Positions 38,685-43,756 of a stretch of DNA of 64,000 bases are shown here, piece by piece. Within the stretch, counting starts at the first letter, position 1. Every line of letters starts with the position of its first letter. A model generated the notes under the pieces. That model was not told where the DNA came from and searched no databases. It saw only the letters and a list, made by a program, of their open reading frames with translations. The translations under genes were made by a program, and so were the position numbers. This DNA comes from a bacterium (GTDB taxonomy: Bacteria > Chloroflexota > Dormibacteria > Dormibacterales > Dormibacteraceae), in NCBI GenBank assembly GCA_004299235.1, contig SCQL01000028.1, positions 124,001 to 188,000 of the forward strand, read 5' to 3'.

Positions 38685-39935
38685 CTAGGTCAGTGAGGCG
38701 GTCCCGGCCAGGATGCCGAGCATCCACCGCGCCGCGGCCGCATCGCGCTGCCGGACCGCCGCCCGCAGCGCCCTCACCGCGCGCGGGCTGTCGAGATCGT
38801 CGGCCAGCGCCGCCGTGAACTCTCGCACGAGCCCCTTCCCCGCCCCCGCCGGCGGCCGGAACGCTGGGCCCGCCCCCACCACCACCGCGGAACGAGGTTC
38901 GCCCGCCCCCCGAACCTCATCCGCCAAGAGCGCGCGCAGGCGCTCGACCAGCCGGGCGGCTCGCGCCAGACCCTGCCAGCTGAAATCCCAATCACGCTCG
39001 TAACGATGCGAGGCCAGATAGAGTCGCACCGCGGCCGCGGGCGCCCGCTGCAGCGCCTGGCTCACGTGCACCAGGTTGCCCAGCGACTTGCTCATCTTCC
39101 GGCCCTCGTACCGGACCATCCCAGTGTGCATCCAGGCGCGGGAGAAGGGAACCTTGCCGGTTAAGGACTCCGACTGCGCACGCTCGGACTCGTGGTGGCT
39201 GAACGCGAGGTCGCGACCTCCGCCGTGGATGTCGATCTGATCCCCCAGGTAGCGCATCGCCATGGCCGAGCACTCGATGTGCCAGCCGGGCCGTCCCGGC
39301 CCGAATTTCGATTCCCACGACGGTTCGTCCGCCCTTGAACGGCGCCACAGCGGAAAGTCGAGGGCGTCGCGTTTCGCGTTCAGGCCGACGGTGCCCAGGA
39401 GTCCCTCGTCGCGCAGCTTGCGCAGCATCGATCGCCGCGTGCGATGTGACAGCCCGCCGTAGCCGGGGTAGCGGCTGACGTCGAAGTACAGCGCGTCGGT
39501 GCAATAGGCATGCCCGGATTGTTCCAGCCGCGAAGCGGTGCCGAGGATGTGGCCGATCTCGTCCGAGACGCGCGGCATCACGTCGGGCGGGCGCCAACCG
39601 AGCGCGCCCATGTCCCGCATGTGCACCTTCACCTCGCGGTCGGCGAGGATCCGCCAATCGATGCCGTCACGGCGAGCCCGCTCGAAAAGCGGATCGTCGA
39701 TGTCGGTCACGTTCTGCGCGTACCGCACGCGAACGCCCTGGGATTCGACGAAGCGCACCAGGATGTCGAACGTGCAGAACGTGAAGGCATGACCCATGTG
39801 GCCGGAGTCATAGGGCGTCACCCCACAGACATACAGGGTGAGCTCCTTGCGGCCGGCCTTGGTTTGGGGCGCGAGGCGCACCTTGCCCTCCGTCAGCGTG
39901 TCGCGTACGCGGAGGCGGAAGGGGGCCTCAGGCAC
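38685..39935 (-). CDS. MshC-like cysteine ligase (cysteinyl-tRNA synthetase paralog)
   Basis: This 416-residue class I synthetase fold protein has a HIGH-type GHMGH, KMSKS, a zinc-site CGVTPYDSGH, and FSHHESERAQSES. Two features point to MshC (Cys:GlcN-Ins ligase of mycothiol synthesis) and away from CysRS. One is NVTDIDDPLFERARRDGIDW, where CysRS usually has TDVDDKII. The other is the short length, lacking most of the CysRS anticodon-binding tail. CysRS function cannot be excluded without comparison. GTG at 39935, downstream of metK by 26 bases. Confidence 0.8.
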   Translation of the reverse strand: MPEAPFRLRVRDTLTEGKVRLAPQTKAGRKELTLYVCGVTPYDSGHMGHAFTFCTFDILVRFVESQGVRVRYAQNVTDIDDPLFERARRDGIDWRILADREVKVHMRDMGALGWRPPDVMPRVSDEIGHILGTASRLEQSGHAYCTDALYFDVSRYPGYGGLSHRTRRSMLRKLRDEGLLGTVGLNAKRDALDFPLWRRSRADEPSWESKFGPGRPGWHIECSAMAMRYLGDQIDIHGGGRDLAFSHHESERAQSESLTGKVPFSRAWMHTGMVRYEGRKMSKSLGNLVHVSQALQRAPAAAVRLYLASHRYERDWDFSWQGLARAARLVERLRALLADEVRGAGEPRSAVVVGAGPAFRPPAGAGKGLVREFTAALADDLDSPRAVRALRAAVRQRDAAAARWMLGILAGTASLT

Positions 39936-39961
39936 GACAGCCGGAACCCAGGTCGATCGCG

Positions 39962-41203
39962 CTAACCGGCCGAGCGGGCCGTTACCGAGGCGTCGGCGCG
40001 CAGGGCTTCGACTTTGTTGGTCAGCTCCCAGGGCACGCCAAGGTCGTCCCGCCCGAAGTGGCCGTATGCGGCGGTCGGACGGTAGATGGGCCGGAGCAGG
40101 TCCATGTTCGCGATGATCGCACCCGGTCGCAGGTCGAAGTGACGCCGCACCAGCTGCAGCAGCTCGGTTTCGGACACCGTGCCCGTGCCGAAGGTCTCGA
40201 CCGCGATGGATGTCGGGTGCGCGCGGCCGATCGCGTACGAGACCTGGACCTCGCAGCGGTCGGCGAGGCCGGCTGCGACCAGGTTCTTGGCCACGTGCCG
40301 CGCGGCGTAGGCGGCCGAGCGGTCGACCTTGCTGGGATCCTTGCCGCTGAACGCGCCACCGCCGTGCCTGGCGACTCCGCCGTACGTGTCGACGATGATC
40401 TTGCGACCGGTCAGGCCCGCATCCGCGGCGGGGCCGCCGACCAGGAAGTGGCCGCTGGGGTTGACCATGATCTTGGTGCGGGCGTCGACGAGCAGCCCGT
40501 CGAGGACGGGATCGATGACCAGCGTGCGCACGCCGTCGCTGATGTCCTGCTGGCTGACTCCCGGAGTGTGGTGCGTGGAGACCACGATGGCTTCGATGCG
40601 CTTCGGGCGGCCGTGCTGGTACTCGATCGTGACCTGAGTCTTGCCGTCCGGCAGGAGAAAGGGCAGCGATCCGTCCTTGCGCTTGTGCGCCAGCCGGTGC
40701 GCCAGCCGGTGCGCGAGGGAGATGGTCAGCGGCATGAGCTCCGCCGTCTCGTTGCAGGCAAAGCCGATCATCATCCCCTGATCGCCAGCGCCCTGGAGCT
40801 CGAACGGGTCGTCGGCGAGCGTCCCTTCGCGTTCCTCGAGCGAGTGGTCGACGCCGGCGGCGATGTCCGGGGACTGTTCCTTCAGATAGACCTGGATGAG
40901 CGCGTGGTCGGCGTCGAAGCCGATCTCCTCGTCGTTGTAGCCAATACCGCGGATCGTTTCGCGGATCGTGCGCTGAATATCGAGCTCGGCGTGCGTGGTG
41001 ACCTCGCCGATGACCACGCAGAGTCCTTTGGTGATCGCGGTCTCGCATGCGACGCGTGCGTTGGGGTCCTGCCCCAGCATGCCGTCGAGCACTGAGTCGG
41101 AGACCTGGTCGCAGACCTTGTCGGGGTGGCCCTCAGTGACGGATTCGGAGGTCAGAAGGAACGATTGAGACGAGCTGAAGGAAGTTGTCACAACGGCAGC
41201 CAA
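39962..41203 (-). CDS. metK: S-adenosylmethionine synthase
   Basis: This 413-residue enzyme makes SAM from methionine and ATP. Signatures are [31 protein letters not shown] and [22 protein letters not shown] at 41203 is the longest start; GTG at 41191 is also possible. The 45 bases upstream are too short to hold a known SAM riboswitch. Confidence 0.96.
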
Positions 41204-41563: not shown

Positions 41564-42220
41564 TCACTCTGCGGTGCCGAGGACTTCGACGCGCCCCGCC
41601 GCCGTGACCCGGACGCCGACCGTGTCGAGCGCGGGCAACGGGTAGGCGTAGGTGGATTGGCCGTTCGGGGTGAAAGACGCCGGATGGCAGGGGCAGTCGA
41701 GCAGCCCGGCGCCGCTATTCCATTGCAGCTCGCACGGAAGGTGCGAGCAGATCGAGGACACCGCGGTCACGGTGGCGCCGTGGCGGAAGAGGTACGCGCT
41801 CACTGCGCCCGCGCTCACCCGTTTGCCCTGGCCGTCAACGAGGTCCTCGAGCGCGGCCACGTCCACCCAGCGGGCGTTCATCGGGCTGATGGGCGCGCCT
41901 CCGGGGCGCTGCGGCGACGAGGTCCCCTCCATCGCCCGGCTGACCAGGCCGCCGGTGGCGGCGCCCACGGCCAGGCCGATACCCGCCACCAGCGCCGCGC
42001 GTCGCGTCAGCCACGCGTTGTGTGGCGCGGATCCGAGGCTCTGCGCCAGGCGCCTGCGGAAGGCCGGGCGCATGCGCTGCGGACCCTGGCGCGCCGCCGC
42101 CAGTCGGGCGGCCGCGGTGATCGCCGCCTTCTCCTCGGCGTCTCCCCCGCGCAGCTTCAACCGGCGGCCGTGCAGCAGATCGGAGACGATCTGGTCGACC
42201 CGGTTCTCAGCCTTAGTCAT
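41564..42220 (-). CDS. Tat-anchored Rieske [2Fe-2S] protein, possible anti-sigma factor
   Basis: The protein is 218 residues long. Residues ~1-70 are hydrophilic and probably cytosolic. A twin-arginine membrane anchor follows (TRRAALVAGIGLAVGAATGG), then a C-terminal Rieske domain with CSHLPC and CPCH (ligands Cys, His, Cys, His) outside the membrane. The ATG overlaps the ECF sigma-factor gene by 8 bp. That position is normally taken by an anti-sigma factor, and the cytosolic N-terminal domain could play that part. No HxxxCxxC zinc anti-sigma motif is present. An ordinary electron-transfer role remains possible. Confidence 0.85.
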   Translation of the reverse strand: MTKAENRVDQIVSDLLHGRRLKLRGGDAEEKAAITAAARLAAARQGPQRMRPAFRRRLAQSLGSAPHNAWLTRRAALVAGIGLAVGAATGGLVSRAMEGTSSPQRPGGAPISPMNARWVDVAALEDLVDGQGKRVSAGAVSAYLFRHGATVTAVSSICSHLPCELQWNSGAGLLDCPCHPASFTPNGQSTYAYPLPALDTVGVRVTAAGRVEVLGTAE

Positions 42221-42767
42221 GCAGCCGGACCTTGGCTGCCGCGCGCAGGGCGCGCAGCTGCATGACCTTGATCGCCCCGACGGTCGAACGCATCTCGGCG
42301 GCCACTTCCTTGAGTGAATACCCGTGCAGGAAACGCAGCTCCAGCACGCGCCGGTAGTTGTCGGGAAGCTGGGCCAGGATCCGCTGCACCGCCTCGACCC
42401 CGGCGTCGGCGGCGGGCACGACCGGCGCCGCGATCACCAGATCCTCGTGCAGCTCCGCTTCTGAAAGCCCTAGACGGGTGCTCCAGAACGCGCCGAGCAC
42501 CGAGCGCGCGGTGGCGAACAGATATCCCCGGATGGCGCTCGCCGGCGCCCCCTGCCGCAGCCGGGGGATCGCCTTCATGGCCACCTGCTGGGTCAGGTCT
42601 TCGGCGTCGGCACGGTTGCCGACTCGCGCGTGGATGAACGCATACACCAGCTCTAGCTCGTCGAGAGCGATGTCCGTGGCGAGCGACGCCGCCGGCAGCT
42701 GCAGCACGTCCCCTTGCCCCTCCGAGCCGGTCGCCGGCTCGTCCGGGGGGTCGCTCATCGCGGGCAT
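42213..42767 (-). CDS. ECF-type RNA polymerase sigma factor
   Basis: This 184-residue sigma-70 family protein has region 2 (YAFIHARVGNRADAEDLTQQV) and region 4 (LPDNYRRVLELRFLHGYSLKEVA...VGAIKVMQLRALR). It lacks regions 1 and 3, as usual for ECF factors. A start at 42758 is also possible. It overlaps the Rieske gene by 8 bp, which suggests that the two act together. Confidence 0.92.
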   Translation of the reverse strand: MPAMSDPPDEPATGSEGQGDVLQLPAASLATDIALDELELVYAFIHARVGNRADAEDLTQQVAMKAIPRLRQGAPASAIRGYLFATARSVLGAFWSTRLGLSEAELHEDLVIAAPVVPAADAGVEAVQRILAQLPDNYRRVLELRFLHGYSLKEVAAEMRSTVGAIKVMQLRALRAAAKVRLHD

Positions 42768-42820
42768 TACGGGTGCAGGTTACGTGAGCGCCCCGGCGAT
42801 TTCGCCCGCTTACAGCAGGC

Positions 42821-42862: not shown

Positions 42863-43756
42863 TCAGGCGTGGCGCGGCAGCGGCAAGCGGCGGCGGCGCC
42901 AGAGGAGGTAGCCAAGCCCCAGCAGGATCACGATCGGGCCGAGCGCGCCCAGCCCGGCGACGACATAGTTGATCGTGCTGACGAAGTTGTGCGCGGCGTC
43001 ATTCAAGGCGGTGGCGAAGCCCCAGCTGTCGGACGGCGGCGCCTGGACCGGTGCCCCGGCCTCGGTCAAGTTGACGGTGACGGTGCTGAAGGCGGTGTTG
43101 CGGTCGAGGTACTGAATCTGGCCTTTGAGCTGCTCGATCTGGCCGGTGATCTGACCGATCTGGTTCTGCACGGTGATGATGTCCGAGATGGACTGAGCCC
43201 TCGCGAGCAGCGCCAGCATGGCGTTGCGCTGCGCTTCCTCATTGGCCAGGCGGGCCTGCAGGTCGACGTACTGGGCGCTGACGTCCTGGCCGCTGATGTG
43301 CTCGTTCTGGACCTTGCCGAGCGTCGAGAGCTGGTCGATGGTCTCGTCGAACTTGGCGGCGGGGACCATGAACGTGATGACCCCGGTGCGGATCTGGTCG
43401 TTTGTCACGGGGTTGACCTGGGCGTCGGTGCCGGCGATGAAGCCCTGCTCCTGCTCGACGAGGGCGCGCACCTGGGCCAGCTTGGCATCGAAGGTGCCCG
43501 ACTTCACGCTGATCGCGAGCTGCGCCTGGCGGATGACCTGGGGCCCCTGGAGCGTGGGCACGACGTCGGTGGTCGGTGGATTGGCGATGTCGGTGATCCC
43601 ACCGGGCTGCCCGTTGATCTTGGTCGGCGCTCCCTTGGAGCCGCCCGCCTGGTCGGGGCCGGAATACCTGGCCGCGCCGGAGGTGGCCGTGCCGCCGGCG
43701 CCGCCGCAGGCTGCCGCCGCCACCAGCATGGCAAGGATGACGAGGACTTTTTTCAT
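42863..43756 (-). CDS. DUF4349 lipoprotein
   Basis: This 297-residue protein has a lipoprotein signal (MKKVLVILAMLVAAAACGG). A DUF4349 domain follows (RQAQLAISVKSGTFDAKLAQV ... TGVITFMVPAAKFDETIDQL), then a coiled coil (~170-225) and a C-terminal transmembrane helix with a basic tail. It is thus anchored at both ends with the bulk outside. The ATG has AGGAGG seven bases upstream. The role is unknown. Confidence 0.88.
   Translation of the reverse strand: MKKVLVILAMLVAAAACGGAGGTATSGAARYSGPDQAGGSKGAPTKINGQPGGITDIANPPTTDVVPTLQGPQVIRQAQLAISVKSGTFDAKLAQVRALVEQEQGFIAGTDAQVNPVTNDQIRTGVITFMVPAAKFDETIDQLSTLGKVQNEHISGQDVSAQYVDLQARLANEEAQRNAMLALLARAQSISDIITVQNQIGQITGQIEQLKGQIQYLDRNTAFSTVTVNLTEAGAPVQAPPSDSWGFATALNDAAHNFVSTINYVVAGLGALGPIVILLGLGYLLWRRRRLPLPRHA

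Follow-up and report, generated by a model that had tools for sequence, protein, structure and literature searches.

Anti-sigma factors are one of the main routes by which bacteria read conditions outside the cell, and the signal of most of them is unknown. The class I proteins (RseA, RsiW, RskA), each co-encoded with an ECF sigma factor, consist of a cytosolic N-terminal domain, one membrane span and a variable external sensor. The anti-sigma domain ASDI has four helices, three of them bundled on sigma4 and the fourth placed on sigma2, with an Hx3Cx2C motif in about half of its members, and from one anti-sigma group to another the external sensor domain differs (PMC7406223). Class III is represented by RsbN, which is anchored in the membrane and has a three-helix domain (PMC8103513, PMC7406223). 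Cytosolic anti-sigma factors that hold a [2Fe-2S] cluster have also been described: RsmA in Streptomyces, whose sigma binding depends on the cluster, and RshA in M. tuberculosis (PMC3427169).

The gene pair analysed here comes from a member of the Chloroflexota and lies in a window of 64 kb, by which we mean the whole stretch of 64,000 nucleotides under study. It joins the gene of an ECF sigma factor to that of a Rieske protein encoded directly downstream. We consider it likely that the Rieske protein is the anti-sigma factor of the sigma factor encoded upstream, anchored in the membrane and carrying its Rieske sensor outside; in this reading sigma binding, inhibition, cluster assembly and the redox response are all inferred. 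The resemblance to class I proteins lies in the co-encoded ECF sigma factor, the cytosolic N-terminal domain, the single span and the external sensor, whereas the N-terminus, unlike ASDI, has three predicted helices (at low confidence), no zinc motif and no Pfam match. An Fe-S cluster in an anti-sigma factor recalls RsmA and RshA. However, these proteins are cytosolic and built on HATPase_c or ZAS folds, RshA having Cys ligands, while the window protein would carry its cluster in an external, membrane-anchored Rieske domain with Cys2His2 ligands, apart from the candidate sigma-binding domain. The cluster site comes after the membrane span, and the protein is therefore not of the RsmA/RshA type. 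Finally, a Tat-type anchor, a Rieske domain and the same ligand motifs are found in QcrA and PetC, the Rieske subunits of bc1 and b6f complexes. The window protein differs from them by the lack of a nearby cytochrome b gene, by scores far below the equivalog cut-offs, by an extra conserved N-terminus of 72 residues and by a constant ECF sigma neighbour.

The literature that we searched holds no link between Rieske proteins and anti-sigma function and no external Rieske sensor; a prior mention is not excluded. The first-pass annotation of the window, made from the sequence alone, had suggested a new type of redox sensor. This holds for the external Rieske domain and not for the cluster as such, [2Fe-2S] anti-sigma factors being already known in RsmA and RshA. 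If true, the pair would be, to our knowledge, the first known case of a Rieske domain as a transcriptional sensor. Because the cofactor site of the sensor domain is chemically defined, the class of signal (redox or Fe-S damage outside the membrane) can be guessed, and a promoter element with its targets, COG4315 lipoproteins of unknown function, makes a reporter assay possible. A role would also be offered for proteins that would otherwise be annotated as subunits of a cytochrome complex or simply as Rieske proteins.

Anatomy of the gene pair

The features of the locus are as follows, with their evidence in parentheses; residue numbers are those of the Rieske protein.

42866-43756, minus strand: DUF4349 lipoprotein gene directly upstream, retained as a neighbour within the family, membership in the system uncertain (PF14257, E=2.9e-55)
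42768-42783, minus strand: operon-head element GTAAC-N7-CGTA, GTAACCTGCACCCGTA, likely promoter of the sigma operon (conservation, regulon test)
42213-42767, minus strand: ECF sigma factor with regions 2 and 4, 184 aa (translation, Pfam; probable start Met4 at 42758)
42213-42220, minus strand: sigma/Rieske gene overlap of 8 nt, suggesting translational coupling (overlaps of 4, 8, 11 or 14 nt in most of 108 distinct pairs)
41564-42220, minus strand: Rieske-domain membrane protein, candidate anti-sigma factor, 218 aa (translation, Pfam, loci of relatives)
42005-42220, minus strand: residues 1-72, conserved cytosolic three-helix domain, candidate anti-sigma domain (alignment A3, hhalign, sigma-like fusions, low-confidence helices)
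41930-42004, minus strand: residues 73-97, twin-arginine motif R73-R74 and single membrane anchor (R73/R74 conservation, TIGR01409 matches)
41567-41878, minus strand: residues 115-218, external Rieske [2Fe-2S] domain (Pfam, Foldseek, residue invariance)

The observed domain anatomy is that of an ECF sigma factor followed by a membrane-anchored Rieske protein. With 184 residues (fewer than about 200), the sigma protein has regions 2 (Sigma70_r2, PF04542, E=7e-6) and 4 (Sigma70_r4_2, PF08281, E=3e-11) without region 3 or 1.1, and scores 57.6 against a TIGR02937 cut-off of 42.9. Met4 (42758) is its probable start, since the first ATG comes immediately after the promoter-like element, which ends at 42768. 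In the Rieske protein, PF00355 matches residues 118-190 (E=1.1e-9). The 8-bp overlap noted in the first-pass annotation is confirmed by translation, and the N-terminus of some 70 residues, Tat-type anchor and four [2Fe-2S] ligands that it had recognized are borne out (about 72 residues, R73-R74, and C158, H160, C176 and H179). Its description of the locus was accurate, apart from the sigma start, more probably Met4, and the adjoining DUF4349 gene, which had gone unmentioned. On the 3' side of the pair, cysS-like and metK genes occupy 38685-41203 on the same (minus) strand; this adjacency is retained in about 28 family-level loci, probably as plain synteny.

A twin-arginine pair precedes a single hydrophobic segment, with R73 present in all 108 distinct pairs and R74 in 104, and the TIGR01409 TAT signal is matched in three of 33 relatives. 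From the position of this motif we infer a Tat-type anchor and an N-in/C-out topology. Subject to this inference, sequences and alignments fit the layout of a membrane-bound anti-sigma factor, that is, a cytosolic N-terminus, one span and an external domain.

The solved chain closest to the sigma factor (profile A2) is 6dxo_A, with E=4e-25, and its best NCBIfam fit by E-value is the BldN family TIGR02952. We take 6dxo to be the BldN-RsbN complex and 6dxo_A to be sigma-BldN. The membrane anchor and the three helices, predicted at low confidence, would be further points of likeness to the RsbN/sigma-BldN system of Streptomyces. No sequence match between RsbN and the N-terminal domain was obtained when the profile or consensus of the latter was compared with solved structures, and a Rieske domain is not known to us in RsbN. 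It is attractive to suppose that the N-terminal domain had an RsbN-like origin, but sequence does not show this.

Linkage to the sigma factor and the N-terminal domain

Homologues of the Rieske protein were sought in 101 relatives and were present in nearly all of them, many at full length. Conservation of the pair across genomes, which the first-pass annotation had proposed as a check, is met in every locus fetched (more than 100). At the family level, a sigma homologue was found directly upstream of the Rieske gene and on the same strand every time; the same arrangement is observed in 60 of 60 larger loci taken across the class (28-74% identity), and sigma is upstream in 40 of 40 loci that come mostly from other families of the phylum. 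Since the pair is kept in all of the more than 100 homologous loci examined in Chloroflexota, chance pairing is excluded. Most of the 108 distinct pairs overlap, commonly by 4 nt (51 pairs) and then by 8 nt (18 pairs). Absences are also shared. The sigma profile was run against 30 genomes, chosen mainly because no full-length Rieske homologue is present in them. Scores above 230 bits were observed only in G006, G012 and G028, which hold at least fragments of the Rieske gene, all others remaining below 93 bits. The survey covers Chloroflexota and not other phyla: a protein scan of genome contigs found one relative, and plasmids yielded no full-length relative of the Rieske protein.

Such linkage could reflect no more than general operon conservation, the sigma factor being controlled by another regulator or by the DUF4349 lipoprotein, whose gene adjoins the sigma gene upstream in the window. 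Yet in other families DUF4349 is missing from the neighbourhood while the Rieske gene is always present, and the N-terminus of the DUF4349 protein is a lipoprotein signal, leaving it without a cytosolic domain. We find this explanation very hard to credit.

In the anti-sigma reading the contact would be made by the N-terminal domain. This domain is conserved to phylum level, as had also been proposed for checking: profile A3, built from 44 sequences, detects the family down to 16% identity. Helices are predicted at residues 3-16, 28-42 and 52-63 (structure model, low confidence), and no Cys/His zinc motif is present in alignment A3. Pairwise distances between sigma factors correlate with those between N-termini at r=0.917 and with those between Rieske domains at r=0.885, the partial correlations being 0.63 and 0.43, respectively. 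The closer tracking of sigma distances by the N-terminus is expected if sigma touches this part of the protein. Modelling of the contact itself was uninformative: an AlphaFold prediction of sigma and Rieske protein as one chain (four-letter junction word, 3-row alignment) reached a mean pLDDT of 48.6.

The domain also occurs outside the Rieske protein. In L040 and L213 a gene immediately upstream of the pair encodes a degenerate sigma-like protein that ends in this domain and lacks both anchor and Rieske domain (A2 E=1e-26 and 1e-16; A3 E=1e-14 and 2e-12, respectively).

L213:1519-2250; L040, minus strand; also G029:C123:6222-6398: degenerate sigma-like fusions with the N-terminal domain

The fusion gene, preceded by the GTAAC-N7-CGTA element in L040 and L046, possibly encodes a decoy or a second regulator. 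Profile A3 also weakly matches proteins of 680-810 aa encoded directly 3' of another ECF sigma gene, and its comparison with the N-termini of this second family of ECF partners gives an hhalign probability of 94.8% (E=5e-8, 46 columns). In the loci concerned (L206-L211, e.g. G000:C19:122500-126800), these proteins adjoin or overlap the sigma gene and combine a related N-terminal domain with one membrane span and apparent Ig-like (Big_5-type) repeats; they are candidates for a second uncharacterised anti-sigma family in Chloroflexota.

Database evidence for an anti-sigma domain is limited to the NCBIfam "anti-sigma factor" model NF052375, which weakly matches seven of 33 members (best E=5e-5). 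Where its span was seen, the match extends over both the N-terminal domain and the anchor, and the membrane segment may account for part of it; neither the window protein nor isolated N-termini are matched. Pfam returned only chance matches and no anti-sigma domain on all N-termini, and no anti-sigma domain was found among solved structures searched with the N-terminal profile or consensus. One further weak N-terminal match, at G000:C28:71445, was rejected as a ribosomal protein (L10-like). In L054 and L058, the sigma gene and the full Rieske gene are separated by short copies of the N-terminal domain, either remnants or extras, with a frame of about 78 aa in L058.

The Rieske domain and its cluster site

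The external domain meets the criteria of a Rieske domain in its ligand motifs (C158-x-H160 and C176-x-x-H179), its disulfide pair (C163/C178) and its fold. The model of the protein alone has a mean pLDDT of 57.8, with most of the Rieske part at 71-82, and Foldseek relates it to solved Rieske domains (best E=2e-7). Conservation of the cluster site is observed throughout the family: C158, C163, C176, C178 and H179, together with W118 and G187, are invariant in the 108 distinct pairs. The exception is the first ligand His, residue 160, which is His in 99 and Asp in nine of the 108, and nothing else. The Asp160 forms belong to about five lineages (L009; L028-L030; L057, L060 and L073; L155; L158). 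The canonical Rieske cluster is thus not universal in the family, and some lineages possibly have a 2Cys-1His-1Asp cluster with Asp as a ligand. As judged from sequence, the pattern argues for a working cluster rather than decay, without proving it, and both cluster binding and redox activity are inferred.

A Rieske fold that no longer senses redox is to be weighed: the protein could still be an anti-sigma factor in which the fold serves as a scaffold or partner binder, the signal being of another kind, such as envelope stress or metal. The replacement of His160 by Asp in about five lineages, the lack of direct evidence for a redox input and the diversity of extracytoplasmic anti-sigma domains (PMC7406223) are all compatible with this. 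Five of six cluster-site residues, the disulfide Cys included, are nevertheless invariant in 108 pairs, the sole substitution is by a possible ligand, and the neighbouring or element-bearing genes encode cupredoxins, CHRD/SOD-like proteins, a second Rieske protein and DoxX. We judge a loss of sensing unlikely, without dismissing it. Redox sensing remains an inference from the invariant cluster site and from a regulon of extracytoplasmic redox-type proteins.

A part in a cytochrome complex was rejected, because no cytochrome b gene is present near the pair in 101 loci or anywhere in the 64-kb window. The first-pass annotation had likewise seen no such partner, and had named as grounds for refutation that relatives might carry the same Rieske protein beside cytochrome b genes; no such pairing was found. 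The protein scores 27.7 bits against an equivalog cut-off of 250 bits for bc1/b6f Rieske subunits, and the cytochrome-type Rieske protein of the window genome is encoded by a separate gene (L215), beside its own cytochrome b genes. The Rieske protein of the pair could instead be an electron-transfer protein, co-transcribed as a target of the sigma factor and not regulating it, with the long N-terminus as a mere extension of the Tat signal region. Rieske proteins generally carry electrons, this one is Tat-type and membrane-anchored, and in L040 and L213 the pair is followed by another Rieske gene, of cytochrome type. Against this stand the 101 of 101 loci without cytochrome b, the phylum-wide gene overlap and co-absence with sigma, and an N-terminal domain that shows sequence conservation and also occurs in fusions with sigma-like proteins that have no anchor or Rieske domain. 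A pure electron carrier is, in our estimate, improbable.

The GTAAC-N7-CGTA element and its dependence on the presence of the sigma factor

The form GTAACC-N7-GTA has a single match in the 64-kb window (42768-42783, minus strand). Among 92 loci of the whole phylum, 84 have GTAAC-N7/8-GTA between -700 and +60 of the sigma start; the total for the 92 loci, both strands counted (1.84 Mb), is 126 matches. Where a CHRD lipoprotein gene stands between the DUF4349 and sigma genes, the element precedes the CHRD gene instead. The other matches in these loci are mostly placed 17-90 nt before genes for COG4315 (PF03640) lipoproteins, cupredoxins, a CHRD protein and the sigma-domain fusions; one is also found 122 nt before the gene of a YceI-like protein.

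The link to the sigma factor was examined with the pattern GTAAC-N6..8-GTA on PF03640 genes from genomes with and without the sigma factor. The element precedes 15 of 21 such genes in the former and none of 18 in the latter (Fisher p=2.2e-6), against a background of six matches in 116 kb elsewhere in the sigma-containing set. The genes compared are not phylogenetically independent; within family f2 alone, the counts are four of five with sigma and none of seven without. In the window genome, the sole PF03640 gene, located on another contig, carries the element. As occurrence before PF03640 genes is observed to depend on the presence of sigma, GTAAC-N7-CGTA is very likely read by the sigma factor of the pair. 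The genome-wide count of the element is not above that of a reversed-pattern control; hence the element alone cannot predict targets, and the regulon should be small.

A search for canonical ECF promoters (AAC-N14..18-CGT) found nothing consistent, and GTAAC-N7-CGTA was recognized by inspection of the sequences. The distance from CGTA to the start codon can be as short as 9 nt. This is consistent with leaderless messages in which CGTA serves as the -10 element, and it would place GTAAC at about -24 to -20. The usual spacing in ECF promoters is about 16 bp. The 7-bp spacing found here is far from it, no other conserved block was seen among the loci, and how an ECF holoenzyme would read such an element is unexplained.

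With this element, the proposal of the first-pass annotation that the Rieske protein is an anti-sigma factor is supported by several lines of evidence: strict linkage and co-absence, a conserved N-terminal domain, sigma-like fusions, weak NF052375 matches and a sigma-dependent element and regulon. In the mechanism that we propose, the cytosolic three-helix domain would hold sigma at the membrane, while the Tat-exported Rieske domain would sense a change of its [2Fe-2S] cluster outside, either in redox state or by cluster loss to oxidants or metals. This change would free sigma by a conformational or proteolytic step, and free sigma would transcribe from GTAAC-N7-CGTA its own operon and COG4315 (PF03640) lipoprotein genes and, in relatives, genes for cupredoxin, CHRD and YceI-type secreted proteins. 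The parts of this scheme that are inferred are sigma binding and its inhibition, the assembly of the cluster, the stimulus, the direction of the response and the manner of release. We are evenly divided on the full picture: a phylum-wide system in which an external Rieske [2Fe-2S] anti-sigma factor reads the outside redox state and controls an ECF sigma factor, secreted COG4315 lipoproteins and copper-type electron-transfer proteins are expressed from an unusually compact GTAAC-N7-CGTA promoter, and some lineages use a 2Cys-1His-1Asp variant.

Some variation in the surroundings of the pair was also recorded. In many f1 relatives the element is preceded, at a distance of a few nt, by an inverted repeat that looks like a terminator, and in about 13 loci a CHRD/SOD-like lipoprotein gene is inserted before sigma. 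Redox-themed neighbours differ by family: a second, cytochrome-type Rieske gene and COG4315 lie downstream in L040 and L213, DoxX-like proteins are encoded in L054 and L058, and the L047 group has a divergent thioredoxin-reductase-like gene.
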